Below the pieces are notes generated by a model that saw nothing but the letters and a program-made list of their open reading frames with translations, was not told the DNA's origin and did no database searches. Below, piece by piece: positions 2,468 to 36,802 of a DNA stretch of 64,000 nucleotides; positions within the stretch are counted from its first letter, which is position 1; each line of letters starts with the position of its first letter. The translations under genes and the position numbers were made by a program. The DNA comes from Prochlorococcus sp. AG-355-N18 (lineage in GTDB: Bacteria; Cyanobacteriota; Cyanobacteriia; PCC-6307; Cyanobiaceae). The DNA is taken from contig QCEG01000007.1 in the NCBI GenBank assembly GCA_003278535.1, positions 1-64,000 on the forward strand. The letters run 5' to 3'.

Positions 2468-3937
2468 ATGATCAAACTTTTTAATACTTTAAGCAAAAAA
2501 GTTGAGGTTTTTAAGCCTATTGATGATGTAGTAAAAATTTATTGTTGTGGGGTAACTGTTTATGATTTATGTCATCTTGGTCATGCCAGAAGTTATATAG
2601 CTTGGGATGTATTGAGAAGATTTTTAATTTATAGTGATTTCAAAGTGAAGTATGTTCAAAATTTTACAGATATTGATGACAAGATCTTAAAAAGAGCGAA
2701 AGAAGAAAGCAGTTCAATGAAGGAAGTATCTGAAAAAAATATTATTGAATTTCATAAAGATATGGATTCTTTAGGGATAATGCGACCGGATAGTATGCCA
2801 AGAGCAACTAATCATATATGCAATATCTGCTCCTTCATAACAATCCTCGAGGACAAAGGTTATGCATACTCTAGAGATGGGGATGTTTATTATTCTGTTT
2901 TTAAAAATAAAAATTATGGAAAGCTAAGTAATCAAAATATACAAGAACAAAATATCAATCAGCAAGGAAGAATGGCTAATGAGGAAAATAGTAAAAAACT
3001 TAATCCGCAAGATTTTGCACTATGGAAAAAAGCCAAAGATGATGAACCATTTTTTGATTCGCCATGGGGTAAAGGTAGACCAGGATGGCATATTGAATGT
3101 TCGGCGATGGTTAAAGATGAATTAGGAGATACTATTGATATCCATTTAGGTGGTTCTGATTTGATTTTTCCTCATCATGAGAATGAAATCGCCCAATCTG
3201 AAGCGGCCAATGGCAAAAAGCTTGCAAACTATTGGTTACACAATGGGATGGTCAATGTAAATGGACAAAAGATGAGTAAATCCCTTAAAAATTTTAAAAC
3301 TATCAGAGAGCTAATTAAGTCAGGTATAAGCCCTATGACTTTGCGATATTTTGTTATGACTGTGAATTATAGAAAACCACTCGATTTTACTGAAGAAGCT
3401 TTAAGGAGTGCTTCAGAAGCTTGGAAAAACATTAATGCAGCCCTTTCTTTTATGGACCTTACAAAAGGTGCTTTTAGATCTATTGAAAAAAATGAATCTC
3501 TCGAAGAAGAATATAAAGAAAAAATAAATTTTGAAATATCTCAAAAAAAGCTAAAATTTTCTGAGGCTCTGGGAAATGACCTTAATACAGCTGGCGCTAT
3601 TGCAATTATTTACGATTTGGCGAAACCATTAAAAAACTTTTTAAACCAATTTCAAAGGGTTGAAGGTTTTAAAATAGACCTAAATGAAAAATTCTTTCTA
3701 CTTGAGAATTTTAAAACTCTTGAAAAATTGACCGAGGTACTTGGTCTTAAAAAAGAGGTTTTAGTAAAAGAAAGTAAAATAAAAGAAGATGAAATATCAT
3801 CGCTTATTGATGAAAGATTGAAAGCAAAAATGGAAAAGAATTATGCGAAGGCTGATGAAATCAGGAATTTGTTAAAAGAAAAAGGTATTGAACTTATTGA
3901 TCAATCAAAGGAAATAACAACATGGATAAGGGTCTAA
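2468..3937 (+). CDS. cysS: Cysteinyl-tRNA synthetase
   Basis: CGVTVYDLCHLGHARSY and KMSKSLKNF motifs; full length. Confidence 0.97.
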   Translation: MIKLFNTLSKKVEVFKPIDDVVKIYCCGVTVYDLCHLGHARSYIAWDVLRRFLIYSDFKVKYVQNFTDIDDKILKRAKEESSSMKEVSEKNIIEFHKDMDSLGIMRPDSMPRATNHICNICSFITILEDKGYAYSRDGDVYYSVFKNKNYGKLSNQNIQEQNINQQGRMANEENSKKLNPQDFALWKKAKDDEPFFDSPWGKGRPGWHIECSAMVKDELGDTIDIHLGGSDLIFPHHENEIAQSEAANGKKLANYWLHNGMVNVNGQKMSKSLKNFKTIRELIKSGISPMTLRYFVMTVNYRKPLDFTEEALRSASEAWKNINAALSFMDLTKGAFRSIEKNESLEEEYKEKINFEISQKKLKFSEALGNDLNTAGAIAIIYDLAKPLKNFLNQFQRVEGFKIDLNEKFFLLENFKTLEKLTEVLGLKKEVLVKESKIKEDEISSLIDERLKAKMEKNYAKADEIRNLLKEKGIELIDQSKEITTWIRV

Positions 3938-5596: not shown

Positions 5597-6671
5597 ACCA
5601 GTTCTTTACGACTTCGTCTGACCAGCAGCCATTAATCGAATGAAAACCATTATGACCTCCTTTTTCAGTTATAAAAATAGTGAATTTATCAATAGATTCT
5701 TTTCTTAAATTCAAAGTATCCCTATATGGAACCCAGGGATCATCCTTGGCATGAATAAAAAGCATTGGAGGTAACTTTTTTATTGAGTTTTGGATTCTAA
5801 ATATTGGAGAAGCTTTAATATAATAATCCTCTAAAGAATTAAATCCCCAACTAGGAGCTGTAAATTTCTGATCAAATTCTCTTATACTTTTTAAATTTCT
5901 AATTTTGATTCTTAATTTCGCGTTATCAAGGAGTTTGCCTTCATCATTAAATCCCTCCCATAACTGATTTTTTAAGCGGTGAAGTAACCATTTTTGGTAG
6001 ATAGAATTTCTAGGTTTTTCAATACAGAGACTGCATGAAGATAAATCTAAAGGGGTACTCACGCAGGCAAGGCCATCTAAAAGTTTTTCTTCTTTGCTTT
6101 CATCGTAATCTAGGCAGGCATTTAAAAGAATTGTTCCGCCTAAAGATAATCCAACGCCGTAAATTGGAAGATTATTATTCCTTTTCATAAGATCTTTGAA
6201 CTCTAAATTAATTAATTTTTTAAAATAATTAATTGCTGAAATAACATCGCTGGAGCATCTAGCACAATAATTTCCTTTAGCTAAATATCTCGCAGATCCA
6301 GATCCTCTTAGATTTAATTTAAGAACTCCAAAACCATTATTTGCTAATTTCCTAGAGATCCTTCTTAAACCAAACCGTTTAGTTGATCCCCCTAAACCAT
6401 GTGTAACTATTACAAAACCCCTAAGTGAGTTTAAGTTTTCAGGTAATTCTAAAAACCCTAGAAGATAATCAAATTCAAATTTTTTAGAAAGAATTTTATT
6501 AATAGGAAAGAATATTTTTTTATTTTTTTTTGATTTGCCAAAATCAATAACAAAAGTATCTCTCAAAGTTTGTAAATCGCCACCTATCCAAGGTAAGACT
6601 TCTCTAAATGGCTTATTTTTTAAGTAATCTGAAAAACTAATAGATATACTATTATTTCTCCCCAACTCCAA
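5583..6671 (-). CDS. Alpha/beta hydrolase (YheT-like)
   Basis: VIVTHGLGGSTKR, YGVGLSLGGTILLN nucleophile elbow. Confidence 0.8.
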   Translation of the reverse strand: MELGRNNSISISFSDYLKNKPFREVLPWIGGDLQTLRDTFVIDFGKSKKNKKIFFPINKILSKKFEFDYLLGFLELPENLNSLRGFVIVTHGLGGSTKRFGLRRISRKLANNGFGVLKLNLRGSGSARYLAKGNYCARCSSDVISAINYFKKLINLEFKDLMKRNNNLPIYGVGLSLGGTILLNACLDYDESKEEKLLDGLACVSTPLDLSSCSLCIEKPRNSIYQKWLLHRLKNQLWEGFNDEGKLLDNAKLRIKIRNLKSIREFDQKFTAPSWGFNSLEDYYIKASPIFRIQNSIKKLPPMLFIHAKDDPWVPYRDTLNLRKESIDKFTIFITEKGGHNGFHSINGCWSDEVVKNWFMNI

Positions 6672-8091
6672 GATCCTTTAATTCTCCAATCAAATCATTA
6701 AGTACCTTTTTTGCATCACCAAATACCATAGAGGTATTTGGCAGATCAAATAAGTCATTTTTTATTCCAGAGTAACCTGCACTCATACCACGTTTAATTA
6801 CAAATACTGTTCTTGCTTCCTGCACATCAAGAACTGGCATGCCATATAAAGGAGAAGAGCTATCATTTTTAGCTTGAGGATTAACCACATCATTTGCTCC
6901 TAAAACTAAAACAACATCCGTTGCTGGAAAATCAGGATTTACAACATCCATCTCTTTAAGTTGTTCGTAAGGAACATCTGCTTCTGCTAAAAGTACATTC
7001 ATATGTCCAGGCATCCTCCCTGCTACAGGATGAATTGCGTAAACAACTTCAATACCATTTTGCTCTAGTTTTTTTGTCACTTCCCTTAAGGTATGTTGAG
7101 CTTGAGCTACCGCTAGACCATAACCAGGAACAATAATTACCTTGTTGGCTGCCTCTAAAGTCAATGCACATTCTTCAACACTGCAAGAAGTTATATTTGT
7201 ATATTCTCCTGAACCAGAAGAGGCAGTACTTTGTGCAGATAAAGATCCTCCAAAAAGAACTGAGACCAATGATCTATTCATACCCTTGCACATTACCTGA
7301 GTAAGTATTAGACCTGCTGCTCCAACCATTGCTCCTGCTACTATCAAAAGCTGACTATCTACAACGAAACCTGCTGCTGCTGCCGCAATCCCTGAATAGC
7401 TATTTAATAAAGATATAACGACTGGCATATCAGCTCCACCAATTGGCAAAGTAACTCCAATACCTAATAAAGAAGAAACTATAACTAAAAGCCAAATAGA
7501 ACTTGTATTACCGTTTATCAAATCAAAAAAGGCTATCAAAGAAGCAACTGCAAAAACAATATTTACAAAATGTCTAACTTTACTCTGAGTCCATCCAGGA
7601 GTTGACAACCAACCCTGTAACTTTGCCATCGCCACAATTGAACCTGTAAAAGTTATGGCACCAACGAATATAGAAACAGATATTGAAACTTCGTTAATCA
7701 GTGACTTAAAAAAATCAAAATTTTCTTGGCCACCAGATATAGGGAAAATAGCTACTCCTAAGGCCACTAAAAGTGATGACATTCCTCCACAACCATTGAA
7801 CAATGCCACTGTTTCAGGCATGGAGGTCATAGGTACTTTTTTTGCAAGAATTGCTCCGAATAAACTACCTATGATTGTTCCAATTATTATCCAAATCCAA
7901 GACTGAATAGCAATTTCAGAAGTGCCTAAATAATAAGAAAGTAATCCTACTGCTGATAGCGACATTGCAAATGCAGCTAATCTATTGGCATCCCTTGCTG
8001 ATTTTACTTTTGACAATCCTTTTATTCCCAAAGCCAGTAAAAGTACTGCTAGAAGATCAATAACGAATTTTATGATTACAGGTAGATTCAT
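6652..8091 (-). CDS. pntB: NAD(P) transhydrogenase subunit beta
   Basis: VIIVPGYGLAVAQAQH and AGRMPGHMNVLLAEA motifs; multiple TM segments. Confidence 0.96.
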   Translation of the reverse strand: MNLPVIIKFVIDLLAVLLLALGIKGLSKVKSARDANRLAAFAMSLSAVGLLSYYLGTSEIAIQSWIWIIIGTIIGSLFGAILAKKVPMTSMPETVALFNGCGGMSSLLVALGVAIFPISGGQENFDFFKSLINEVSISVSIFVGAITFTGSIVAMAKLQGWLSTPGWTQSKVRHFVNIVFAVASLIAFFDLINGNTSSIWLLVIVSSLLGIGVTLPIGGADMPVVISLLNSYSGIAAAAAGFVVDSQLLIVAGAMVGAAGLILTQVMCKGMNRSLVSVLFGGSLSAQSTASSGSGEYTNITSCSVEECALTLEAANKVIIVPGYGLAVAQAQHTLREVTKKLEQNGIEVVYAIHPVAGRMPGHMNVLLAEADVPYEQLKEMDVVNPDFPATDVVLVLGANDVVNPQAKNDSSSPLYGMPVLDVQEARTVFVIKRGMSAGYSGIKNDLFDLPNTSMVFGDAKKVLNDLIGELKDLGVGEK

Positions 8092-21758: not shown

Positions 21759-21804
21759 ATTTTACTAAACATCATTAATTACTAGATAAAGGAAATAATT
21801 TTAA

Positions 21805-22407
21805 TTAAATTAAGAATAAAAAACACCCTGCAATAAATCCACTTAAATGCCCTAATAAACTTACACCTGGCAAAAAAGAGAAAATCAAACCTATAAGGCA
21901 TATTGTCTTTGACATTTTTTGAACTTTTTTATTGGACTTAAAACCAATTTCTTTACCTAAAAAATATTTCTTTCCATAAAAAGAAGTTAATAATATGAAT
22001 CCAAATAAAGCATAAATTATTCCACTAAATCCTAAAGCGGCATAATTCAGATAGATATTAAAATACGATAAAATCTTTTCGTAAAACCAGATAATAAAAA
22101 AATTTAAAAAAGAACAACTTAAAATAAATTTCAAATAAAAAAATCTGTTTTTGTTTCCAAGTCTCATTAAAAAATATCTTGTAATGATTATTCCACCGAG
22201 ATTGCTTAATAAATGATTTAAATCTGCATGAATTAGGATTGATGTAAAAATCCTATAAGGTTGATCACTAATTAATTTTGGTACAAAGTAAAAATATTCT
22301 TTATCAATAACTCCAATTAAATCTGTAAGTATAAAAACTGAAATTAAAAGAGATGCGCTTAGGATGTATTGCCAATCATATTTAGATATTGAATTATTAG
22401 TTGCCAT
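21805..22407 (-). CDS. Rhomboid-like membrane protein
   Basis: HADLNHLLSNLGGI, ALGFSGIIYALFGF, GHLSGFIAG. Confidence 0.75.
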   Translation of the reverse strand: MATNNSISKYDWQYILSASLLISVFILTDLIGVIDKEYFYFVPKLISDQPYRIFTSILIHADLNHLLSNLGGIIITRYFLMRLGNKNRFFYLKFILSCSFLNFFIIWFYEKILSYFNIYLNYAALGFSGIIYALFGFILLTSFYGKKYFLGKEIGFKSNKKVQKMSKTICLIGLIFSFLPGVSLLGHLSGFIAGCFLFLI

Positions 22408-22499
22408 ATTTTCTTTAGTTTTATACTAAAAGAATATCTGCTTACTTATAGAAGTACATAACCTCAAAAGTTTTTTAATGTCTTGAATTTATATTACCT

Positions 22500-22658
22500 T
22501 TAGTAAACTTTGCAATGAGAACTTGTTGGGTGATCTATGCACTCTTTCTCCCAATAATCTTGTCTTGAATCTTTTGGCAGTTGATAATTAAAATCATGCA
22601 TTCTCCAAATATCTGAAGTCGCATTTCTAAGGGCAGTGAATGGAGTGGTGAGTCTCAT
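22500..22658 (-). CDS. Small conserved hypothetical protein (52 aa)
   Basis: Hand translation: MRLTTPFTALRNATSDIWRMHDFNYQLPKDSRQDYWEKECIDHPTSSHCKVY; upstream aggaggttt SD on minus strand. Confidence 0.65.
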   Translation of the reverse strand: MRLTTPFTALRNATSDIWRMHDFNYQLPKDSRQDYWEKECIDHPTSSHCKVY

Positions 22659-22734
22659 AAAACCTCCTATATCTCTACTCCTTAATTATCCTCTTATTCA
22701 TATGAAATTAATAGAGTATTAATACCCGAGTATT

Positions 22735-22870
22735 AGTGCTTTGCGGTTGTCGCTACTATCTTTTCTAATTAAGTAGGAGTAGAAATAATTCAGGAGTCAA
22801 AAGCACTTCATCGACTTTGTGGACAGCGAGGTGCATAAGACTCGAAGAGGGCAAATAAATGCCCTCTTAT
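22735..22870 (+). ncRNA. Candidate small structured RNA ending in a terminator
   Basis: Non-coding gap; long-range complement AGTGCTTT(22735-22742)/AAAGCACT(22800-22807); terminator stem at 3' end. Confidence 0.35.
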
Positions 22871-22876
22871 TTTATT
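22846..22876 (+). terminator. Rho-independent terminator
   Basis: AGAGGGC(22846-22852)-aaataaat-GCCCTCT(22861-22867) then tattttatta. Confidence 0.7.
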
Positions 22877-22902
22877 ATTGGGACTTCCAGAAACGATAAA
22901 TT

Positions 22903-22920
22903 AACGGAGAGGGTGAAATT
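22903..22920 (+). repeat. att-like repeat 1 (aacggagagggtgaaatt), distal copy
   Basis: Identical 18-mer at 28693; first 13 nt identical to 35633-35645 at tRNA-Ser 3' end. Confidence 0.8.
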
Positions 22921-22932
22921 CACTTTCAAAAT

Positions 22933-22983
22933 ACATAGGCAGATACTGGAATATATAGGACTTATGTTTGAGAGATATTGGAC
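22933..22983 (+). repeat. 10-bp-phased ATANNGGA-like repeats, left end of element A
   Basis: ACATAGG 22933, ATACTGG 22943, ATATAGG 22953; further ATATTGG at 22975. Confidence 0.65.
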
Positions 22984-22987
22984 ATAT

Positions 22988-23009
22988 CCACCAACACATC
23001 CACCAACAC
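22988..23009 (+). repeat. Iterons CCACCAACAC x2, 12-bp period, left end of element A
   Basis: Exact copies at 22988-22997 and 23000-23009. Confidence 0.8.
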
Positions 23010-23193
23010 CAAAAACTTGCAGATACTGGACGATTCTGTACTGAAAATTTAAACAATATCCTCTACCTGCTTTAACTTTGCCATTCGCGAATTTAGGTGG
23101 CAAACATATTTGTTATAAATTTGAATTAAGTTTTCTTAAAAGATTATGCATAAAAAATATGACATGTCATATTGAAATCCCAATCATTTTTTT

Positions 23194-23700
23194 ATGAAAC
23201 TGGATACTAAATTGAAAAAAATGATTAATTATTTAAATATTGCTTTGCAATGTAAGAGTGATGAAGAAAAAATTCAATTTTATGCTGATTATCAAGATGC
23301 TTTTTATTTAGGCGAAAGTGATGAAGGAGAACTATATCAAAATACATTTTCGGAATTTATCGGGAATCAAAATTTCAATAAAGAAGAATGTGATGAATTT
23401 TTTGACTATAAAGAATTAATGGATAGTGGTAATTATTATCCAGATGATGAAAAATATTTAAAATATCTAGAAAAAAAATATCTTGTATTAATGAATAATT
23501 TTAAAATTTATGCTTTTAATATATGTGTGCTTAATAGATTGCCAGATGATATTCAATATATTAAGGAATTGATTAATGAATATAAGCATCCAGAATATGA
23601 ACAAAATCGTGATAAAAGATTAAAACCTTGGATGCCAATAAAACCAAAATTAAAAGATACAACAAAAGGTGGTGAAATTAAAATTTCAAAAATTTATTGA
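23194..23700 (+). CDS. Hypothetical protein of element A
   Basis: 168-aa ORF, acidic, coding-like; no family recognised. Confidence 0.65.
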   Translation: MKLDTKLKKMINYLNIALQCKSDEEKIQFYADYQDAFYLGESDEGELYQNTFSEFIGNQNFNKEECDEFFDYKELMDSGNYYPDDEKYLKYLEKKYLVLMNNFKIYAFNICVLNRLPDDIQYIKELINEYKHPEYEQNRDKRLKPWMPIKPKLKDTTKGGEIKISKIY

Positions 23701-23707
23701 TAAAACA

Positions 23708-24133
23708 ATGGATAATTCAAAAGAAAAAGTAGTTCCTATACACAAGAACAAAGAACCAAAGATTGATTCTACAGGATTCTTTATCAAACAACTAGAAACT
23801 TTTCCTTCATTAGAAAGAGATGTTCTTCAATTAAGTTTAGGTTTAGGGGAACCTTTTGAGATTCTCCATACAACCGATGAAATAGCAGAAATATTAAATG
23901 AGTCAAAAGAAGTAATAGAGAAAAACTTAGCAACAGGTATGAAAAGAATGAGAGATATTTGTGCCCAAGAAAAGTTAAGGCAGGAAAATGAAGATGCTTA
24001 TAACGAGATCAGATTACAGATGCACAATAGAGTAATTAAAAAACTTCGTTCACTCAAGGAAGAATGGAAACTAGATAATATCAGTCAGGTAACAGAAAGA
24101 ATTATGCTTGCTTTTTTTAAAAATGATATTTGA
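23708..24133 (+). CDS. Sigma-70 region-4-like / HTH protein
   Basis: ETFPSLERDVLQLSLGLGEPFEILHTTDEIAEILNESKEVIEKNLATGMKRMRDI resembles sigma region 4; ATG at 23708 preferred over ORF-track start 23669. Confidence 0.6.
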   Translation: MDNSKEKVVPIHKNKEPKIDSTGFFIKQLETFPSLERDVLQLSLGLGEPFEILHTTDEIAEILNESKEVIEKNLATGMKRMRDICAQEKLRQENEDAYNEIRLQMHNRVIKKLRSLKEEWKLDNISQVTERIMLAFFKNDI

Positions 24134-24162
24134 GACAGAAATACCGTGTCTATCTAAACCTA

Positions 24163-25935
24163 ATGAATAACAAAGACGATTTACTTAAAAACTATATTGA
24201 ATCTCAAAAGAGACAAAAAGCGATTTTAGAAGAGACAAAAAAAAGACGTTTAAAAAATAAAAATAATGTAGAACAGACAAAAAAAATTTTTCAAGATACC
24301 AATGATGAAATCAAAACAGCATCTGAATTTTTCATTCTTGCAGAAAAAGATTATGGAAACAGCAATTTTAAAGGAGCAATTACTTTTTTAACTAAAGCAA
24401 TAGAAATAGATCCTATAGTCGCTAATTATTATCTCAGACGTGGGTTAGCAAAAGTTGAACTCATAGATAATCAAGAGACAACTGATTATCTCGTGAATGA
24501 ATTCGGCAAAGATCCTGAATTATCAAAATCTTTTAAAAAAGATCTTGAAAATTATAGATTTCTAACTTTGAAGAATCGAGAATTCATCTCTGATAAAAAT
24601 TTAGATTATCAAAGTGCTATTAATGATTACAATAAAGCATTAGAAATTAATCCTAAATTTGAAAATGCATTTTTCCTTCGTGGATGTTTAAAAGAAAAAC
24701 TAAAGGATTATCAAAGTGCTATTGATGATTACGATAAAGCGTTAGAAATTAATCCTAAATTTGGAAATGCATTCTGCCATCGTGGATGGTGCAAATGTTA
24801 CTTAAGTGATTTCGATGGAGCAATAACTGATTACACCAAGGCGATAGAAAATCCCAAGGATGAATACCGTGCCAAGAATCAATTTATATATGTAGATCGT
24901 GGTAAAACAAAATTTATATTAAAAGATTATGAAGGTGCTATTGATGATTACAATAAAGCAATAGAAATGGAACCTGAATTTGCAGATGCATTGAATCTTC
25001 GTGGTAGAGCAAAATTCATATTAAAAAATTATCAAGGTGCTATTGATGATTACGATAAAGCAATAGAAATTAGACTGGATGATCTTGATGAGTCTGATGA
25101 TTTTTATATCTGTAGAGCGATTGCAAAAGAAAAATTAGGAGATTATGAAGGTGCTATTGATGATTGCAATAAAGGGTTAGAAATTGATCCAAATAATGAT
25201 CTTTATTCTTCCTTTCGGGCAGATGTAAAAAGAAAAACTATCAAATTAGAAAAAAATAAGGGAAAGGATCAAAATCTTGTAAAGCAAAATCAAGGGTTAA
25301 AGAATATTAAAAAAGTTAAAGGTAAATATTTAGCAGTAGTGAATGACAAACTAAGTAAAAAATATAGTCAAAATGAAATTGCAATTGCTTGTGGTTATTT
25401 TGAGATTAAAAATAAAATTAAAATTCCCTTAGTTCAGGAATATCTTGAAGAATCTTTTAATAATAAGGGAGAACTATTGCAACTTAAAAGTAATTATTCC
25501 ACTGATGACTATTATCTCAAATACATAGAGTTAGATATTTTTAAAGGGCGTTTGTGTGAACATGATGAGGATCATGGAGGGATACTTTATGTTCCAAAAA
25601 GAATTGTTGAAAATGCTAGTGATTGGGATTATCAAAATGCAGATCTTGAAAATTTTGATATTGAATATGTAGAGAATGAAGAAGGTTTAGAAGATTTTGA
25701 ATCCAATATTTCTGAAAAATATACAGAGGATCAAATAAAAGAATTAGATATGGAAAAGGAATTTTTAGAATTTCATGGTTTTTGTGAACCAATGATGTTT
25801 ACTCATGTTTCTTTAATGCATTATGTTGACCATAATTTAAAAACTAATTACGAAGAGTATTTTGAACGTGAAGATATTGCTGAAGCGTATGGCATAAGAT
25901 ATCAAGATATCCATGAAAAATCATTTTTTGCTTAG
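24163..25935 (+). CDS. Tetratricopeptide repeat protein with unassigned C-terminal domain
   Basis: Multiple DYQGAIDDYDKAIEI repeats; C-terminal ~190 aa not recognised; ATG at 24163. Confidence 0.8.
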   Translation: MNNKDDLLKNYIESQKRQKAILEETKKRRLKNKNNVEQTKKIFQDTNDEIKTASEFFILAEKDYGNSNFKGAITFLTKAIEIDPIVANYYLRRGLAKVELIDNQETTDYLVNEFGKDPELSKSFKKDLENYRFLTLKNREFISDKNLDYQSAINDYNKALEINPKFENAFFLRGCLKEKLKDYQSAIDDYDKALEINPKFGNAFCHRGWCKCYLSDFDGAITDYTKAIENPKDEYRAKNQFIYVDRGKTKFILKDYEGAIDDYNKAIEMEPEFADALNLRGRAKFILKNYQGAIDDYDKAIEIRLDDLDESDDFYICRAIAKEKLGDYEGAIDDCNKGLEIDPNNDLYSSFRADVKRKTIKLEKNKGKDQNLVKQNQGLKNIKKVKGKYLAVVNDKLSKKYSQNEIAIACGYFEIKNKIKIPLVQEYLEESFNNKGELLQLKSNYSTDDYYLKYIELDIFKGRLCEHDEDHGGILYVPKRIVENASDWDYQNADLENFDIEYVENEEGLEDFESNISEKYTEDQIKELDMEKEFLEFHGFCEPMMFTHVSLMHYVDHNLKTNYEEYFEREDIAEAYGIRYQDIHEKSFFA

Positions 25936-25990
25936 TTACTATTCAAAGTTTATTTTTTAGATTTGATTTAAGATTATAAAAAAAGTTTCT

Positions 25991-26131
25991 GTGAAAAATT
26001 ATCTGATTTCAGGTTTAGTGGATGAATATAGAATCAAAACAAATTTGTTTGCTATTTCTCCTAATCATGCAATAAAGGTCTTTCAACAAAAATATCCAAA
26101 AGCAGTAGATATATATGTGATACAAAATTAA
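25991..26131 (+). CDS. Small hypothetical protein (46 aa, GTG start)
   Basis: Hand translation: VKNYLISGLVDEYRIKTNLFAISPNHAIKVFQQKYPKAVDIYVIQN. Confidence 0.4.
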   Translation: MKNYLISGLVDEYRIKTNLFAISPNHAIKVFQQKYPKAVDIYVIQN

Positions 26132-26232
26132 TTTAAAGGTAAATAATTTTTTCTGATAATAAATTTCTTCAAGAAACTTAATTTGCATTCTCTTCAGAGT
26201 TCGCTTATATAAGTTTCCATCGAAAATTTTAT

Positions 26233-27156
26233 ATGAGGAATTCCAAAGAAAAACAATTAAAACTTAAAGGCATTCGTTTAAGAAAAGATTCAGAGGATAT
26301 GAAGAATTTAGCGAGCATAATGCCCACTACTTTTGAAAATATAGAAAAAAGTTCATTAGGAAAATATTCAACAGGTGTCCCTGTAAGTTTTTATGACTTA
26401 GATGCAATGACACAAGGTCTGCAAAGGGGTTCATTAGTTGTTGTTGCTGGTCGACCTTCAATGGGAAAAACATCTTTTGCAATGAATCTTGCACAAAATG
26501 TTGCCAAGACAAATAAATTACCAGTTTGTTATTTCAGTTTGGAACAAAGTAGAGAACAAATGAGTTACAGATTTCTCTCTATGCAACTTGGTATTGAAAC
26601 AGGGAGATTGAGAACTGGAAGACTTCATCAAGATGAATGGGGTTTGATTGGTAGAGAGATGAAAGACCTTTCAGAGGTTCCCATATATATGTGTGATAAA
26701 GGTTCAATTAAAGTCAAAGAGATTTTTTCAAAATGTAGGAAAATTAAAGAAAAGCAAGGACTAGGAGAACTTGGATTAATAATTGTTGACTATATACAAA
26801 TGATGGATGGTCCAAATAAAAAGTCTAGAGATAAAGAGTTATCTAAAATTGTCCTTGATCTTAAAGAAATGGCAAAAGCACTAGATGTACCTGTCGTGCT
26901 TATGTCACAACTTTCTAGAGATATTGAAAAGAGAAAAAATTTTCGTCCAATGTTATGCGACTTAAGGGAAACTCAAGGATTAGAAGCACATGCAGATGTC
27001 GTAATTATGCTTTATAGAGATGAGTTTTATCATCCAGACACTGAAGAAAGAGGTATAGCAGAATTAATAGTTACAAAACACCGAAATGGTCCTGTTGGGA
27101 CAGTTAAGTTGCTTTTTGAACCGCAATTCACAAGATATAGAAATCTTGCTGCTTAA
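26233..27156 (+). CDS. DnaB-like replicative helicase core (C-terminal RecA-fold domain only)
   Basis: GSLVVVAGRPSMGKTSFAMNLA Walker A, LIIVDYIQMM Walker B, VVLMSQLSRDIEKR, LRETQGLEAHADVVIMLYR; no DnaB N-terminal domain. Confidence 0.88.
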   Translation: MRNSKEKQLKLKGIRLRKDSEDMKNLASIMPTTFENIEKSSLGKYSTGVPVSFYDLDAMTQGLQRGSLVVVAGRPSMGKTSFAMNLAQNVAKTNKLPVCYFSLEQSREQMSYRFLSMQLGIETGRLRTGRLHQDEWGLIGREMKDLSEVPIYMCDKGSIKVKEIFSKCRKIKEKQGLGELGLIIVDYIQMMDGPNKKSRDKELSKIVLDLKEMAKALDVPVVLMSQLSRDIEKRKNFRPMLCDLRETQGLEAHADVVIMLYRDEFYHPDTEERGIAELIVTKHRNGPVGTVKLLFEPQFTRYRNLAA

Positions 27157-27265
27157 CTGTTTTTTTTTATGAATTAATCCTTAATTAATAAGTTTTTGTA
27201 GACTTTCTTAAAAGCATATTTAAAATATTAAATACTTAATTAATTAGACAATACTTTTAGATTAG

Positions 27266-28204
27266 ATGACAAATATTGATATATCTGAAGAGAACAAAGA
27301 TAAGTTTTACCAATGCATTCTTGATGCTTGCCCTAAAAAAAGTGTCAAAAATTATAAGGGTGCGATTGAAGATTATACAAAAGCAATAGAAATTGATCCT
27401 AGTAATGCTTTAGGTTATCGCGAGCGTGGAGATGCAAAGTTTGAATTAAAAGATTATCAAGGTGCTATTGATGACTACACAAAGGCAATAGAAATAGATG
27501 GCAGTTTTTTTTATACTTCATTAAAGAAGAGGGACAATTATTATTCATTACGAGGAGGGGCAAAAGAAAAACTAGAAGATTATCAAGGTGCTATTGATGA
27601 CTACTCAATTGCATTAAAAGAAGAGGAGGACTGTGAGATCTTTGCTATGGTTTTAGAGTGTCGTGGTAGGGCAAAAGAAAAACTAGAAGATTATCAAGGT
27701 GCTATTGATGATTATTCAAAGTTTATAGAAATAGATTTTTATTCGTCTTTAAAATCAAGTGGCGGGGCAAAAGAAAAACTAGAAGATTATCAAGGTGCTA
27801 TTGATGATTATTCAAAGATAATAGAAATGGAACCTGATTGTGGACAAGCATTCTATCTGCGCGGCAAAGTAAAATTTAAATTAGAAGATTATCAAGGTGC
27901 TATTGATGACTACACAAAGGCAATAGAAATTCTTGATTTTGACTTTTTTTTTAAGAGTCGTGCAGATGCAAAACAAAAATTAAAAGATTATCAAGGTGCT
28001 ATTGATGACTATACAAAGGCAATAGAGATTCGTGATGATGACTTTTATCATGAGACTTGTAGAGATACAAAACAAGTATTAGAAGAATATCACTACCAAC
28101 TTTCTACAGTTAAGAAGCAATTAAAAGACAATAAAGGTGCGGATAAGGATAATAAAAATGCAGAAATACTGAAGAAAATACAAGAGGAAAAGCAATCGCA
28201 ATGA
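27266..28204 (+). CDS. Tetratricopeptide repeat protein
   Basis: About seven near-identical DYQGAIDDY(T/S)KAIEI repeats. Confidence 0.85.
   Translation: MTNIDISEENKDKFYQCILDACPKKSVKNYKGAIEDYTKAIEIDPSNALGYRERGDAKFELKDYQGAIDDYTKAIEIDGSFFYTSLKKRDNYYSLRGGAKEKLEDYQGAIDDYSIALKEEEDCEIFAMVLECRGRAKEKLEDYQGAIDDYSKFIEIDFYSSLKSSGGAKEKLEDYQGAIDDYSKIIEMEPDCGQAFYLRGKVKFKLEDYQGAIDDYTKAIEILDFDFFFKSRADAKQKLKDYQGAIDDYTKAIEIRDDDFYHETCRDTKQVLEEYHYQLSTVKKQLKDNKGADKDNKNAEILKKIQEEKQSQ
27558..27807 (+). repeat. Exact 43-nt intragenic direct repeat, 3 copies
   Basis: gggcaaaagaaaaactagaagattatcaaggtgctattgatga at 27558, 27669 and 27765. Confidence 0.85.
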
Positions 28205-28431
28205 AAGAAGAAATAGATTGGAAAAAGGAATTACTTGAGAGTGGAAGATTTAACGATCAATTTTCCAAAGGTCTTTTAGAAAATGGTGCAAAGAATTTCA
28301 TGCAAGGAATCTATCTTGGATATATGTACTCCAGATGGAGAAAAATAAGAGGATTAGATAAAGATGATCCAGTAGAAAATACAGGTCAAATGCAAGCATC
28401 TTTTAAAGATTTTGAGAAGAAAATCAAATAA
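28201..28431 (+). CDS. Hypothetical protein (76 aa)
   Basis: ORF overlaps the TPR gene stop codon by 4 nt, suggesting translational coupling. Confidence 0.55.
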   Translation: MKEEIDWKKELLESGRFNDQFSKGLLENGAKNFMQGIYLGYMYSRWRKIRGLDKDDPVENTGQMQASFKDFEKKIK

Positions 28432-28435
28432 AGAT

Positions 28436-28480
28436 GATACCTAATTCACTTCAGAAGAATCTGAACCAACTCATTATTAA
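28436..28480 (+). pseudogene. Remnant of terminal small ORF homologous to 35386-35430
   Basis: Reads DT*FTSEESEPTHY* versus DTYFPPEESEPPHY* in element B. Confidence 0.65.
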
Positions 28481-28498
28481 CAAGCGATCTTGAGGAAT

Positions 28499-28584
28499 CC
28501 ACCAACACATACTTCGTCCATCAAATATCCACCAACACATCAAAAAATATCCACCAACACATCCACCAACACATCCACCAACAC
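28499..28584 (+). repeat. Iterons CCACCAACAC x5, right end of element A
   Basis: Exact copies starting 28499, 28529, 28551, 28563, 28575 (spacing 30/22/12/12). Confidence 0.85.
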
Positions 28585-28594
28585 ATTCAGGCAT

Positions 28595-28623
28595 ATACTG
28601 GTAAATATTGGACTATATAGGAC
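28595..28623 (+). repeat. 10-bp-phased ATANNGG x3, right end of element A
   Basis: ATACTGG 28595, ATATTGGAC 28605, ATATAGGAC 28615. Confidence 0.7.
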
Positions 28624-28692
28624 AAGAAACTTCTTTAAAATCCGATTTTGACTACATTATTGCCCACATAGCACTTTACAGGAAGATAATTA

Positions 28693-28710
28693 AACGGAGA
28701 GGGTGAAATT
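28693..28710 (+). repeat. att-like repeat 2 (aacggagagggtgaaatt), junction copy
   Basis: Identical to 22903-22920. Confidence 0.8.
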
Positions 28711-28722
28711 ACATCTCATTCT

Positions 28723-28749
28723 ATAACGGAAGATAGAGAACCATATAGG
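28723..28749 (+). repeat. 10-bp-phased ATANNGGA-like repeats, left end of element B
   Basis: ATAACGGA 28723, ATAGAGAA 28733 (weak), ATATAGGA 28743; same offsets from att core as in element A. Confidence 0.6.
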
Positions 28750-28777: not shown

Positions 28778-28799
28778 CCCCCACTACACCCCCCACTAC
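28778..28799 (+). repeat. Iterons CCCCCACTAC x2, 12-bp period, left end of element B
   Basis: Copies at 28778-28787 and 28790-28799. Confidence 0.75.
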
Positions 28800-28821
28800 C
28801 ATTTTGGTATCTGCAGGGAAG

Positions 28822-28839
28822 ATATAGGACGATATAGGA
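28822..28839 (+). repeat. Two ATATAGGA repeats, 10-bp period
   Basis: gATATAGGAcgATATAGGA. Confidence 0.6.
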
Positions 28840-29429: not shown

Positions 29430-31010
29430 TTGGTCATTCCTAAAAAGAAAGAAGATACTCCAAAAGATTTCAAAGCAGTTCTATGGGCAAGTGCAGATAA
29501 ACTACGTGCTCAAATGGATGCTGCTGAATATAAGCATTTAGTTCTAGGGATGATATTTCTGAAATATATTTCTGATACTTTTATCGAGCAACAGAAAAAA
29601 GTTTTAGAAATGGTAAGTAATCCTGATTCAGATTATTACCTTGGAGATGATCCAAAAGATCATCAAGAAGCATTAGAAGATAGAGATTATTACACACAAG
29701 CAAATGTATTCTGGGTACCTCAAGATGCTCGATGGGAATCACTTAGAGATAAAGCACCACAACCTGAAATCGGACAACTTATTGATAAAGCATTAGTAGC
29801 GATTGAGAATGAAAACCCAACTCTTCGAGGAAAGTTAGATAAACGATTTGGTGCTGCCCAATTGGAACCTGGACGAATGGGCGAATTAGTAAATTTGATT
29901 TCAACAATTGGTTTTGGTGAAGGCGAAAAAGCAGGTGACGTATTAGGTGAGGTATATGAATATTTCTTAGGTCAATTTGCAAGTGCTGAAGGCAAAAAAG
30001 GAGGACAGTTCTATACTCCTGCTCATGTAGTAAAAACTCTTGTTGCTGTTTTATCTCCAGATAAAGGTCGTGTTTATGATCCTTGTTGTGGATCAGGTGG
30101 AATGTTTGTGCAGAGTGAGAGATTTATTGAAAAACAAGGTGGAAGAAAAGATGATATTTCGATTTATGGACAAGAAAGTAATCCGACTACTTGGCGATTA
30201 GCAGCAATGAACTTAGCAATTCGAGGATTCGCTAGCGATCTAGGTAAAGAACCAGCAGATACTTTTGCAAGAGATCAACATCCTGATCAAAAATTTGATT
30301 ACATACTTGCTAATCCACCTTTCAATATTTCTGACTGGGGTGGCGAAAAATATGATGGTGATGTTCGTTGGGCATACGGAAGACCACCTTCAGGAAATGC
30401 AAACTATGCATGGTTACAACATATGCTTTGGAAGTTAAGACCAGGGGGGCAAGCAGGGGTTGTTCTTGCAAATGGATCAATGAGTTCCAATACAAGTAAC
30501 GAAGGAAATATTCGAGAAGAGATGATTAGAAAAGATGTAGTTGAAGTTATGGTTGCCTTGCCTGGACAATTATTTTTGAATACTCAGATTCCTGTTTGCT
30601 TATGGTTTTTGACTAACGATAAAACTCAAAGAGGAAGAGATCGAATAGGAGAAACTTTGTTCATTGATGCCAGTCAAATGGGGACAATGAAAAATCGTGT
30701 TGAGAGAGTTCTTACTAATGAAGATATTTCTAAAATTTCTGATACAGTTAAATCTTGGCGTAATGATCATGAGTATGAAGATATTGCAGGATTTTGCTAT
30801 AAAGCAAAGTTTGAAGAGATTGAAAAAAATGGTTTCGTTCTAACTCCAGGAAGATATGTTGGTGCTCCTGTAGAAGAGGATGATGGTGAACCCTTTGATG
30901 AGAAGATGAAAAGACTTACTGCTTTACTCAAAGAGCAGCAAGAAGAAGGAGCAAAATTAGATCAAGAAATTGCTGAAAATTTGAAGAGGATTGGTTTTGA
31001 ATTCAAATAA
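29430..31010 (+). CDS. hsdM: Type I restriction-modification system, methyltransferase (M) subunit (TTG start)
   Basis: [17 protein letters not shown] motif, [21 protein letters not shown] motif, [13 protein letters not shown]. Confidence 0.96.
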
Positions 31011-32187
31011 AAAACAAAAAAAATTATTAGGGGATTTTTGTTCATTCAAATATGGTAAAACAATTCGCAAATCAGAGATTGCTTTTGAAGGTTTATATCC
31101 TGTCTTTAGTGGTTACCAAATTGTTGGTTATCTAGATTCATTTATTTATAACGAACCTCAACTTTTAGTTGTGTGTAGGGGAGTTGGAGGAACTGGTGAT
31201 ATAAAAATTTCTCCATCCCAATGTTCTATCACTAACCTTAGTATTATTATCTCAGCAAATAAGGAAGTTGATAAAAAATATCTTTACTGGGTATTGAGGA
31301 ATTCAGATACTCATTCAATGAGAACAGGTTCTGCTCAACCTCAAATTACAATAACTGATTTAGAGAGATTTCCAGTAGAAATACAAGAATCACTTGCCTA
31401 TCAAAAAGCAATCGCTCACATTCTAGGCACACTTGATGAAAAGATTGAAGTCAATCGAAAAAACAATGAAACTCTTGAAGAAATTGCAAAAGCACTTTTC
31501 AAATCATGGTTTATTGATTTCGATCCTGTCAGAGCAAAAGCAGAAGGTTGCGCAACTGGATTACCTGATGAGATTAGTGATTTATTTCCAGATTCATTTG
31601 AGGACTCTGAACTGGGTAAGATCCCAAGTGGATGGAAAATACAATCATTAGGATCTATTTCTAAAATATTCGCGGGTAAACGACCAATATCTAGATCAGA
31701 AACAAAAACAAGTTTTGCAAAATATCCTCTTTATGGAGGAGCAGGACCAATGGGATTTACAAATGAAGTTCTCATAAATGAAACTAAAATTATTACTACT
31801 GGAAGAGTTGGAACACTTGGAAAGTTTTTTAGAATAAAAATTCCAACATGGATTTCAGATAATGCATTGATTCTTGAACCATCTGATCTTTTTTATAATT
31901 TTTGTTTTTATAGATTATTGAATTTTGATATTACTATTTTCAATAGAGGAAGTACTCAACCTTTGATTACACAAAGTGATTTGAAAACAATTGAAATGAT
32001 TTCTGCTGATGAAAAAATTCATAAAGTATTTGAAAGATTATGTTCAGATTTATTTGAGAAATTTGAAATCAATCAAAATGAATCTAATACTCTTGAAAAT
32101 ATTAGAGATTGCCTTCTCCCAAAACTAATTTCAGGGGAACTAAAAATTCCTGATGCTGAGAAAATAATTGAGGAAGTAGGAATATGA
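30991..32187 (+). CDS. hsdS: Type I restriction-modification system, specificity (S) subunit
   Basis: Two variable target-recognition regions with conserved central ([39 protein letters not shown]) and C-terminal ([10 protein letters not shown]) regions. Confidence 0.95.
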
Positions 32188-35100
32188 TATCGATTCTTTC
32201 GGAAGAAGATTTAGAAAATATTTCTGTTGAATGGTTCAAAGAAATTGGTTATGAATTTGCTCATGGACCAGATATTGCTCCAGATTCAACGTCTCCAGAA
32301 AGAGATGATTTTAGAAAAGTTATTTTTGAAAATCGCCTTCGATCTGCACTCATAAAAAATAATCCCAAAGTGCCAACTAGAACAATTGATTCTGCAGTTC
32401 TTCAATTATCAAATCCAAATATTCCTGGATTACTTGCTTCCAATCGTCAATTTCATAGGTGGATAACAACTGGTCTTCCAATCTCATACATGCAAGGTAA
32501 TCAAGAAATTGGAATCCGATTAAAAGTTATTGACTTCGATAATGCTGATAATAATGATTGGTTAGTTGTAAATCAATTAGCAGTTCATGGATCAAAAAAT
32601 AGAAGACCTGATCTAGTTGTTTACTTAAATGGTCTCCCTATTTCTGTCATTGAACTCAAAAATCCCGCTGATGAAAAAACTGATATTTGGGATGCCTTCA
32701 ACCAATTACAAACTTACAAGAATAATATTCCAGATTTATTTACTCCTAATGTTCTCCTTGTAATAAGTGATGGAACCTATGCAAAGGTGGGATCTCTTTC
32801 TGCGAATGAAGAAAGATTTCAGCAATGGAGAGTTATTGAAAAAGAACAAGACTTAGATCCACTTGGAAAGTTCAAACAATTAGAAACTTTAGTTAGAGGT
32901 TTATTTGATAAAAAAAGATTATTAGATTTCATACGGTCATTCTGTGTATTTGAAGAGGAAGGAGAAATTATCAAAAAGATTGCTGCTTATCATCAATTCC
33001 ATGCAGTAAATACAGCAGTTGAAAGAGTCATAGAGGCAAGTAAACCAGATGGAGATCGTAAAGGTGGAGTTGTTTGGCATACCCAAGGTGCAGGAAAAAG
33101 TATCGAAATGGCATGTCTTGCTGGGAAATTACTAACTGATAAAAGACTTCAAAATCCAACATTAGTTTTAGTGACTGATAGACAAGATTTAGATGGTCAA
33201 TTGTTTGGCGTTTTTGCAGGATCTGGAGATTTATTAGGGGAACAACCTAAACAGGCAGAGTCGAGAAAAGATCTTAGGGAACTATTAGATAACAGACCAA
33301 GCGGTGGAATTATATTTACTACTATTCAAAAATTTGCAACTGAAAAGGATGAAGAATTTTTCCCAACTTTGACTGATAGAAAAAATATTGTAGTGATTTG
33401 CGACGAGGCACATCGTACTCAATATGGTTTCAAAGGAAGAATAGATTCAAAGACAGGAGAAGTGAAATATGGATTAGCAAAAGGTCTGAGGGATGCTCTT
33501 CCTAATGCAACCTTCTTAGCATTTACAGGGACTCCAATTTCTCAAAATGATCGAGATACACAAGCAGTATTTGGTCATTACGTATCTGTTTATGACATTC
33601 AGCAAGCAGTAGATGATGGGGCAACAGTTCCAATCTATTACGAATCAAGATTGGCAAAATTAGATATCAAAACAAGTGCTCTTCCAATAATTGATAGTAA
33701 AGTGGATGACATTTTTGAAGATGAAGATGACATCCCTTCTACAGAAAAAGAAAAAGGAAGATGGGCAGCATTAGAAGCACTTGTGGGGGCAGAACCTCGC
33801 CTAAAACAAATTGCCAAAGATTTAGTTGCTCATTATGAACAAAGATCAAAAACTCAACCTGGAAAAGCATTGATAGTTGGCATGAGTAGAGAAATTTGTG
33901 CTCGATTATATAACGAACTTATTGAACTAAAACCTGATTGGCATGATGAAGATCATATGAAAGGTTCTGTGAAAGTTGTAATGACAGCATCAGCATCTGA
34001 ATCTCAACTTCTCCAACCTCATCAAACAAGTAAACAACAAAAAAAAGATTTAGAAAATAGATTCAAAGATCCATATGATCCTCTCAAAATTGTTCTTGTA
34101 AGAGATATGTGGTTAACAGGTTTTGATGCACCTTGCTTGGCAACTATGTACGTTGATAAACCTATGAAAGGAGCAAATCTTGCTCAGGCAATTGCAAGAG
34201 TGAATAGAGTTTTCAAAGATAAACCAGGCGGTTTGATTGTCGATTACATTGGCATTGCACCACAACTCAAAGAGGCACTTGCCACATATACTGCTTCAAA
34301 AGGAAAAGGAAAACCTACTCTGGATACAAGTGAAGCAGTTCGCATTCTTATTGAACAAATTCAAATAGCAAAAGATCTCTTGCATCCAGTTGAGTGGAAT
34401 CACTTTAAAGAGAAAGGAAAAGCATTTGAAATTATTCCTAATTGCCTAGATCATATTCTTGAAATAGAAGATGGGAAGCAAAGATATTGCGATACAGTTC
34501 TAAAAATTACAAAGGCATTTGCACTCTGCGGAACAACAGACAAAGCAATTGAACTTAGTCCAGAAATTGCATTTCTTCAAGCAATGAGAGCAATGCTGGT
34601 AAAAGGAACTATTAGTGGTAAAACACCCAGAGAAGGTTATGGTTTTCAACTGCAACAATTATTATCTGAGTCATTAGTTTCCGAGGGCGTAACTGATGTA
34701 TTCAAAGTCGCGGGTCTAAAGAATCCAGATATAAGTATCATGTCAGATGAATTTTTATCAGAAGTAAGTAAGATCCCTCAAAAAAATTTAGCAGTTGAGT
34801 TGCTTCAAAAACTATTGAACGATGAAGTGAAAAGTAAATTCAGAACAAATGTAGTCAAACAAAAAAACTTTAGTGAAATGCTTTCAGCATCATTGAATAA
34901 ATATAAAAACAGAGCAATAGAAGCAGCACAAGTTATAGAGGAACTCATAGCAATGGCAAAAAAATTCCGAGAAGATTTAGAACGTGGAATTACATTAGGT
35001 TTATCTCCTGCAGAACAATCTTTCTATGATGCTCTAGCAGATAATCCCTCTGCACATGAACTAATGAAAGAAGAAGTTCTTGCAAATATGGCAAAAGAAC

Positions 35101-35288
35101 TTGCAGAAATTATGAGAAAAGATGCAAATATTGATTGGCAGTATAAGGAAAATGTTCGAGCAAAACTGAGACTCAAAATCAAAACACTTTTGAAGAGACA
35201 TAAGTATCCCCCTGATGAACAAATTACTGCAGTTGAGACTGTTTTACAGCAAGCAGAAACTCTTGGAGAAGAATTAGTAGCGAGTTAG
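32184..35288 (+). CDS. hsdR: Type I restriction-modification system, restriction (R) subunit
   Basis: GVVWHTQGAGKSIEMACLAGKLL, VICDEAHRTQYG, FLAFTGTPI helicase motifs; N-terminal nuclease region ISVIELKNP. Confidence 0.96.
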   Translation: MISILSEEDLENISVEWFKEIGYEFAHGPDIAPDSTSPERDDFRKVIFENRLRSALIKNNPKVPTRTIDSAVLQLSNPNIPGLLASNRQFHRWITTGLPISYMQGNQEIGIRLKVIDFDNADNNDWLVVNQLAVHGSKNRRPDLVVYLNGLPISVIELKNPADEKTDIWDAFNQLQTYKNNIPDLFTPNVLLVISDGTYAKVGSLSANEERFQQWRVIEKEQDLDPLGKFKQLETLVRGLFDKKRLLDFIRSFCVFEEEGEIIKKIAAYHQFHAVNTAVERVIEASKPDGDRKGGVVWHTQGAGKSIEMACLAGKLLTDKRLQNPTLVLVTDRQDLDGQLFGVFAGSGDLLGEQPKQAESRKDLRELLDNRPSGGIIFTTIQKFATEKDEEFFPTLTDRKNIVVICDEAHRTQYGFKGRIDSKTGEVKYGLAKGLRDALPNATFLAFTGTPISQNDRDTQAVFGHYVSVYDIQQAVDDGATVPIYYESRLAKLDIKTSALPIIDSKVDDIFEDEDDIPSTEKEKGRWAALEALVGAEPRLKQIAKDLVAHYEQRSKTQPGKALIVGMSREICARLYNELIELKPDWHDEDHMKGSVKVVMTASASESQLLQPHQTSKQQKKDLENRFKDPYDPLKIVLVRDMWLTGFDAPCLATMYVDKPMKGANLAQAIARVNRVFKDKPGGLIVDYIGIAPQLKEALATYTASKGKGKPTLDTSEAVRILIEQIQIAKDLLHPVEWNHFKEKGKAFEIIPNCLDHILEIEDGKQRYCDTVLKITKAFALCGTTDKAIELSPEIAFLQAMRAMLVKGTISGKTPREGYGFQLQQLLSESLVSEGVTDVFKVAGLKNPDISIMSDEFLSEVSKIPQKNLAVELLQKLLNDEVKSKFRTNVVKQKNFSEMLSASLNKYKNRAIEAAQVIEELIAMAKKFREDLERGITLGLSPAEQSFYDALADNPSAHELMKEEVLANMAKELAEIMRKDANIDWQYKENVRAKLRLKIKTLLKRHKYPPDEQITAVETVLQQAETLGEELVAS

Positions 35289-35616: not shown

Positions 35617-35634
35617 CAAGGGAACTCTAAAAAA

Positions 35635-35719
35635 CGGAGAGGGTGGGATTCGAACCCACGAATAGTTACCTATTAAACGATTTCGAGTCGTTCGCTTTCG
35701 ACCACTCAGCCACCTCTCC
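35635..35719 (-). tRNA. tRNA-Ser (anticodon CGA), CCA not encoded
   Basis: GGAGAGGTGGCTGAGTGGTCGAAAGCG...ACTCGAAAT...GGGTTCGAATCCCACCCTCTCC; 7-bp acceptor stem, long variable arm, discriminator G. Confidence 0.97.
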
Positions 35720-35773
35720 CATATTTAAAATATAAATTAAAAAATTTATACTAAAAATATATTTAGATTTTTG

Positions 35774-36802
35774 TTAATTCCAACCAGTTTCTTTCATTAT
35801 TTCTATTGCCTTACTATTGAATTTGCCAATTTCTTTTATAGTCACATTATCTGGAGTGAAATCTCCAAATTTACTAACAATTCTATTTTGACTTGATTCC
35901 TTTAAAGGGTGCTCATAAGTTTTATTAGCTAAACCTTGACTACCTTCACTAGAAGCTAAATATTCAAGAAGTTTAATAGCCTCAGTCTTGTTTTCTGCAT
36001 ATTTATATACGCCCCCAGCAGTTATATTTACATGCGCAGGATTGGGTATTATTAATTTTATTTTTTCTGCTAAAGAAGCATCTCTTGGGCCTTTAACTCC
36101 ATCAAGCATCCTTGCGACATAATAATGATTAACGATTCCAATACCGCACGTTCCCTGCCCTACAGCTCTTATTAATGAAGAATCTCCAGAAAAATAGGGA
36201 GTGGAGACATTTGATATCAAACCCTTAAGCCAAATTTTTGTTTGGCCAACGCCTTTCTTTGCTATTTGATTAGAAACCAAAGATTGATTATAAGGACTTT
36301 TTCTATTTCTTAGACATACTTTTCCTTTAAAAGAAGGATTGGTTAGATCCTCAAAATTTTTGATTTTTGTAATATCCACAATATCCGGATTTGTGATGAT
36401 TACTCTTAATCGCCTAGTAAGGCCAAACCATTTATTTCTAGGATCTCTTAAATTATTTGGAACACTATTTTCTAGAATATTTGAATTAATTTTTTGAAAT
36501 AAATTTGCCTTTGATGCATTTTCAATTCTTGCTGCATCAACAAGAATTACTAAATCAGCCTGAGAATTTTTACCCTCTCTTTTTAAGCGCTCAATTATAG
36601 CTTTTCCATCTGTTTCTATATATCTAACTTTGATGCCAGTTTGTTCTTGAAATTTTTGATAAACCTCTTTATCTGTATTGTAATGTCTACCAGAAAATAA
36701 CCTAACCTCTTTCTCTGCAGAATTTACAGGTTGATTATTTAGAAGTAGCGATAATGTCACTGAAGTAAAAAATAGCTTTTTTAAATAATTCTTTAATTTC
36801 AT
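35774..36802 (-). CDS. futA: Fe(III) ABC transporter substrate-binding protein
   Basis: EKEVRLFSGRHYNTDKEVYQKFQEQTGIKVRYIETDG; IdiA/FutA family. Confidence 0.93.
   Translation of the reverse strand: MKLKNYLKKLFFTSVTLSLLLNNQPVNSAEKEVRLFSGRHYNTDKEVYQKFQEQTGIKVRYIETDGKAIIERLKREGKNSQADLVILVDAARIENASKANLFQKINSNILENSVPNNLRDPRNKWFGLTRRLRVIITNPDIVDITKIKNFEDLTNPSFKGKVCLRNRKSPYNQSLVSNQIAKKGVGQTKIWLKGLISNVSTPYFSGDSSLIRAVGQGTCGIGIVNHYYVARMLDGVKGPRDASLAEKIKLIIPNPAHVNITAGGVYKYAENKTEAIKLLEYLASSEGSQGLANKTYEHPLKESSQNRIVSKFGDFTPDNVTIKEIGKFNSKAIEIMKETGWN

Follow-up and report, generated by a model that had tools for sequence, protein, structure and literature searches.

Integrated elements of closely related kinds have been described in both marine cyanobacteria and other bacteria. 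The tRNA-flanked islands of Prochlorococcus are known as tycheposons (Hackl et al. 2023, Cell; via PMC10872708). As summarised in that source, they share with the locus described here a tRNA-flanked position in Prochlorococcus, variable cargo, satellite-like genes and mobilisation genes, for example a helicase. They differ from it in that the present elements carry no tyrosine recombinase of their own. CIMEs, known from ICE/IME accretion, likewise have attL/attR flanks, lack an integrase and stack in tandem at one site; unlike CIMEs, the present elements have no conjugation module or ICE partner, occur also in gene-free forms of ~200 bp, and reside in a marine cyanobacterium. The elements are of a known, tycheposon/CIME-like kind. 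In the open literature outside the original tycheposon paper, we found no description of phased arms in tycheposons.

In phage lambda, the arm sites P'1 to P'3 are adjacent. Short direct repeats outside the core and on both arms are common to lambda, Tn916 and ICEMlSym-R7A, the last of which requires five arm sites (PMC11963761), and to the repeats reported here, which keep fixed distances. The present repeats differ from these systems in their ATAYWGG consensus and in an L array lying only 13 bp from the core. The TorI excisionase recognises ~10-bp-phased triplets in attL (PMC2951348), and blocks of three phased attL sites are a feature that TorI and winged helix-turn-helix (wHTH) excisionase arrays share with this locus. 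Additionally, the integrases of T7-like cyanophages (P-SSP7, S-TIP37) target tRNA genes in marine picocyanobacteria, using tRNA-Leu, not tRNA-Ser (PMC8776855).

Anatomy of a tandem island at tRNA-Ser(CGA)

The window, that is, the whole 64,000-nt stretch of DNA analysed, belongs to a 1.66-Mb Prochlorococcus genome with 32% GC, assembled into 49 contigs. It contains a 12.7-kb island between a rhomboid-like gene and tRNA-Ser(CGA), composed of two tandem elements without an integrase (Table 1). Three copies of the core ACGGAGAGGGTG bound the island: att1, att2 and the 3' end of the tRNA gene at 35634. The 12-bp repeats are matched within each element: the two ends of element 1 share CCACCAACACAT, and those of element 2 share CCCCACTACAC. 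Cargo varies between genomes and here comprises DnaB-like, TPR and type I restriction-modification genes.

Table 1. Features of the island and its left neighbour, in window coordinates
Feature	Position	Strand	Remarks
Rhomboid-like gene	21805-22407	minus	left neighbour of island
att1 core ACGGAGAGGGTG + AAATT	22904..22920	+	attL of element 1; displaced tRNA-Ser 3' end; left flank of G255/G372 joins the tRNA directly here
Element 1 L-end trio ACATAGG / ATACTGG / ATATAGG	22933..22959	+	starts 22933, 22943, 22953; +13/+23/+33 from core end
Extra ATATTGG site	22975..22981	+	absent from first-pass annotation
Two CCACCAACAC repeats, 12 bp apart	22988..23009	+	element 1 L end
Distal L-end site GATACTGG-ACG-ATTCTGT	23022..23037	+	in relatives, pair ATAYTGG-N3-ATAYTGG
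Hypothetical protein, 168 aa	23194..23700	+	element 1 cargo; no family match
139-aa protein, weak sigma-70 region 4 / HTH similarity	23714..24133	+	relatives in G287, G320
TPR-repeat protein, 589 aa	24166..25935	+	element 1
DnaB C-terminal helicase domain protein, 307 aa	26233..27156	+	90-93% identical copies in G287, G320, G475
TPR-repeat protein, 312 aa	27266..28204	+	element 1
76-aa protein, phrog_16908 (function unassigned)	28201..28431	+	adjoins R end in 7 genomes (conserved)
Five CCACCAACAC repeats	28499..28586	+	element 1 R end
Element 1 R-end trio ATACTGG / ATATTGG / ATATAGG	28595..28621	+	starts 28595, 28605, 28615
att2 core	28694..28710	+	element 1 R end + core + element 2 L end
Element 2 L-end trio ATAACGG / ATAGAGA (weak) / ATATAGG	28723..28749	+	starts 28723, 28733, 28743; +13/+23/+33
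C-rich 12-bp repeats CCCCCACTACAC	28779..28802	+	element 2 L end; matching repeats at R end near tRNA
Distal L-end pair ATATAGG-ACG-ATATAGG	28822..28838	+	element 2; starts 28822, 28832
Type I restriction-modification: hsdM 29430-31010, hsdS 30991-32187, hsdR 32184-35288	29430..35288	+	element 2 cargo
tRNA-Ser(CGA), target gene	35635..35719	-	3' end forms the right-hand core of the island

The insertion is precise. In the relative G255, window positions 21793-22921 are contiguous with 35633-36781, with a 19-bp overlap at the core, and the same empty site, with the island flanks joined within the core, is found in G372. Because these flanks are contiguous at the core, all 12.7 kb of the island must have been inserted at the tRNA 3' end. 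The locus thus combines the hallmarks of a tRNA-integrated element, namely an intact tRNA 3' end, displaced copies of the core and a precise empty site in relatives. Immediately to the right of CGGAGAGGGTG, the sequence is GGGATT in the tRNA and GAAATT in the element L ends. Strand exchange is accordingly placed inside CGGAGAGGGTG, which is identical in tRNA and element and has the GGG/GAA difference as its right boundary. A few relatives depart from GAAATT, including G281 (AAAATT) and G346 (GGGATT).

Elements of ~200 bp without genes occur in G281 (a complete genome in one contig), G312 and G485. They retain both cores and both trios, and their L end runs almost directly into the R end, with the junction at a CCACCAACAC repeat. 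These mini-elements, which presumably arose by deletion between CCACCAACAC repeats, reveal which parts persist once all cargo is gone.

Phase and distance of the arrays

The first-pass annotation of the window had reported eleven phased 7-mers to the right of att1 and on both sides of att2. All eleven were checked against the window and lie where Table 1 lists them, and the offsets of 13, 23 and 33 bp are correct, since the cores end at 22920 and 28710. Of these sites, ACATAGG and ATAGAGA do not fit its title motif, ATANNGGA. Further sites of the same set at 22975 and 23023, as well as the 12-bp repeats (CCACCAACACAT) beside the arrays, had been overlooked.

ATA-rich 7-mers are common at 32% GC, and arrays of them could in principle reflect chance in AT-rich DNA. 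This explanation is exceedingly improbable: the excess of phased pairs over control speaks against it, and the conservation of the +13/+23/+33 phase in other genomes refutes it. The pattern ATANNGG-N3-ATANNGG occurs eight times in the 1.66-Mb source genome, four of them inside the island, and the backwards control does not occur at all; the four island pairs compare with an expectation of 0.014 (Poisson P about 2e-9). The tighter pattern ATAYWGG-N3-ATAYWGGA is confined to the island within its own genome, and across 266 genomes of the genus it was found 30 times versus 2 for the control.

Copies of att were collected with a motif-free probe, GGAGAGGRTGAAATT, scanned over 266 Prochlorococcus genomes. 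Outside the window, 27 copies were recovered, of which 24 are att copies and three (L102, L126 and L130, in coding DNA and judged by eye) resemble chance matches. A weight matrix built solely from the window sites and applied at a threshold of at least 5 bits was matched at +13, +23 and +33 in 19, 17 and 18 of the 27 non-window copies, respectively, and at any other offset in no more than two. The phase, whose absence beside other att sites of the family had been named in advance as evidence against the array reading, is therefore conserved. The L ends form nine classes that are <80% identical, and their self-similarity is 0.44 at lag 10 versus 0.17-0.32 at other lags. Column entropy differs only slightly between motif (0.81 bits) and spacer (0.98 bits) in the L ends, so shared descent accounts for part of the conservation.

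A second trio precedes the core on the opposite side, by 100, 90 and 80 bp. It was seen in 15 distinct R ends read beside the tRNA, with the 100-bp site frequently degenerate; no clear trio was seen at the R end of element 2. When the L-end pattern was scanned over 85,462 genomes, it matched 20 Prochlorococcus-type contigs and gave four unrelated chance matches. The strict triple of ATANNGG is too narrow for such a family-wide scan.

Putative arm-type sites and competing readings

Judging from these features, the phased ATAYWGG arrays are probably arm-type sites of a lambda-type tyrosine recombinase, placed on both att arms of integrase-less tRNA-Ser(CGA) elements. The first-pass annotation had likened them to arm-type or excisionase sites, a comparison borne out by the conserved phase and distance, by arrays flanking the core on both sides and by trios at other integrase islands. 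Integrase arm-type sites appear most likely and excisionase sites less likely, since the sites sit on both arms. The short distance of the L trio from the core, only 13 bp, speaks against the arm-site reading; lambda arm sites sit farther from the core.

That the trios instead serve a recombination directionality factor (excisionase), polymerising along the helix with one subunit per turn, is suggested by the L trio directly adjoining the core, by the binding of KplE1 TorI to three attL sites separated by 2 nt (PMC2951348) and by the head-to-tail filaments that wHTH factors build on DNA (PMC11963761). Unlike the TorI and wHTH arrays, the trios here occupy both sides of the core with an identical motif in identical orientation, and none of the genes of element 1 was recognised as excisionase-like. 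The binding of TorI to a block of three closely spaced attL sites (PMC2951348) leaves this rather unlikely reading some credence.

Further evidence comes from other islands in the genus, which encode integrases of one broad family. A strong lag-10 array lies just upstream of 6 of 14 integrases at other islands or loci, compared with 2 of 144 control genes (Fisher P 4e-6, with four related tRNA-Pro islands counted separately). Among the six arrays beside integrases, four are probably or partly homologous to one another. Repeats of GACTGCACGA lie between the tRNA-Pro(TGG) att and the integrase at L098, L180, L182 and L186, and at L096 three copies of TAAGTGTTTG lie about 55 bp past tRNA-Gly, again between att and integrase. 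Trio sequences at these other tRNA islands differ from ATAYWGG, and the 10-bp phase is kept; phased trios beside att are thus a recurrent feature of this integrase family, each class having its own sequence. Such recurrence beside att and integrase suggests that the arrays are sites of recombination proteins and favours the arm-type assignment.

A role as regulatory or replication sites, kept at the element ends by descent, would be in keeping with the adjoining 12-bp repeats, the DnaB-like helicase encoded by element 1 and the part of the conservation that is due to descent. It is nevertheless improbable: the distance is fixed relative to the core and not to any gene, the arrays survive in the gene-free mini-elements, and a promoter excess beside the L trio was not found.

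The circular form of an element would carry, in order, CCACCAACAC repeats, the R trio, 72 bp, the core ACGGAGAGGGTG/AAATT, 12 bp, the L trio, CCACCAACAC repeats and the distal pair. If the arrays are arm-type sites, each helical turn would hold one of three recombinase protomers, lined up along the same face of the DNA, and these would bridge to the core for strand exchange inside CGGAGAGGGTG. The recombinase would be supplied in trans by a helper integrase or, less surely, by a core-genome recombinase. We infer both which protein binds and that it bridges arm and core.

Candidate sources of the recombinase

Integrase profile A2 matched neither the window nor any of 34 island loci collected around ATAYWGG arms, many of them from draft genomes in which an integrase could lie on an unplaced contig. 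Matches to PF00589 in arm-bearing genomes fall outside these islands. As no scanned arm-bearing island contains an integrase, a protein acting in trans would be needed. No helper element was found in these loci, and viral scans were negative: in viral contigs, the L-end pattern gave a single GC-rich chance match (L131), the R-end and repeat patterns gave none, and the 139-aa protein had no relatives. Element 1 showed no DNA match to the phage collection. Integrases of other islands in the same genome (contigs C2, C11 and C17) have no phased ATAYWGG pairs adjoining them. T7-like cyanophage integrases were rejected as helpers because their target is tRNA-Leu.

The other candidate is a family-wide core tyrosine recombinase (386 aa) that might recognise the arms and mobilise the elements in trans. 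A tyrosine recombinase of 386-396 aa was present in all 18 genomes searched (one copy being cut at a contig end). It lies between frr/pyrH and hemH/ilvB, syntenic and 77-96% identical in 6/6 genomes, and residues R238, K265, R330, H353 and Y362 are invariant among six aligned orthologs. The protein has a PF00589 catalytic domain, and its full model matches the fold of XerA and Tn1549 Int. Residues 1-85 are modelled (pLDDT 88) as beta-beta-beta-alpha, the topology expected for an arm-binding domain. Conserved synteny, invariant catalytic residues and this N-terminal model speak for its involvement, as does the finding of no other tyrosine recombinase in several genomes that bear the arms, the complete genome G095 being one of them. 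Against it, no PDB structure matches the N-terminal model significantly, the ATANNGG pair is absent from the gene's own upstream gap, and the recombinase occurs in 68 of 71 family genomes and 35 of 37 genera, whereas the L-end pattern turned up in Prochlorococcus alone. Its range far exceeds that of the arms, which makes another role probable. Recognition of the arms and mobilisation in trans by this protein is thus unlikely, and it is doubtful that this picocyanobacterial core-gene product acts as a resident integrase that uses ATAYWGG arms to insert and excise, at tRNA-Ser(CGA), elements lacking an integrase and in some cases any gene at all.

The core, the two phased arm arrays and the 12-bp repeats together provide a cis code for a family of integrase-less elements in the most abundant photosynthetic organism. 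This code allows such islands and their ~200-bp remnants to be found from sequence alone, and it reduces the question of what moves integrase-less islands to a test of binding by two named candidate classes. Furthermore, the class-specific 10-bp trios at other tRNA islands suggest that arm arrays could pair orphan islands with integrases.

Repeats at the element ends and gene-free elements

Inside its arm arrays, each element carries 12-bp C-rich repeats at both ends, with the repeat unit CCACCAACACAT in element 1 and CCCCACTACAC in element 2. Elements of ~200 bp without genes were identified at tRNA-Ser(CGA) in three fetched loci, L048, L052 and L059 (genomes G281, G312 and G485, respectively), and consist only of an L end, a repeat and an R end.

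Coordinates of the features described
Feature	Sequence	Position
12-bp C-rich repeats	window	22988-23009; 28499-28586; 28779-28802; upstream of 35634
76-aa protein	window	28201-28431
Tyrosine recombinase, 386 aa	G000 contig C6 (= L133)	56842-57999 (= 5843-7000)
Decayed L-end copy	L060	609-709
Decayed L-end copy	L061	334-469
Decayed L-end copy	L063	672-766
Full tRNA-Ser(CGA) genes	L177 (G344)	203-287; 3001-3085
Four ATGTC copies	L097	1908-1950

Relics and tRNA duplication

Three loci carry a decayed copy of the L end on the opposite side of the rhomboid-like gene; it shares 74% identity with window 22.9-23.03 kb and is apparently an older att relic. In L177, an att copy lies between two full tRNA-Ser(CGA) genes; an entire tRNA copy therefore seems to have been duplicated inside the island.

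Candidate recombination proteins

The 76-aa protein, which directly adjoins the R end and is conserved there in seven other genomes, is a candidate accessory or excision factor. At a different tRNA gene, ATGTC copies spaced by 10, 10 and 11 bp are located between tRNA-Ser(TGA) and a tyrosine recombinase gene. Of 71 Cyanobiaceae genomes, 68 encode the 386-aa tyrosine recombinase, and its gene is a core gene whose synteny is maintained in all six genomes compared; a Xer-like housekeeping function is a candidate role.
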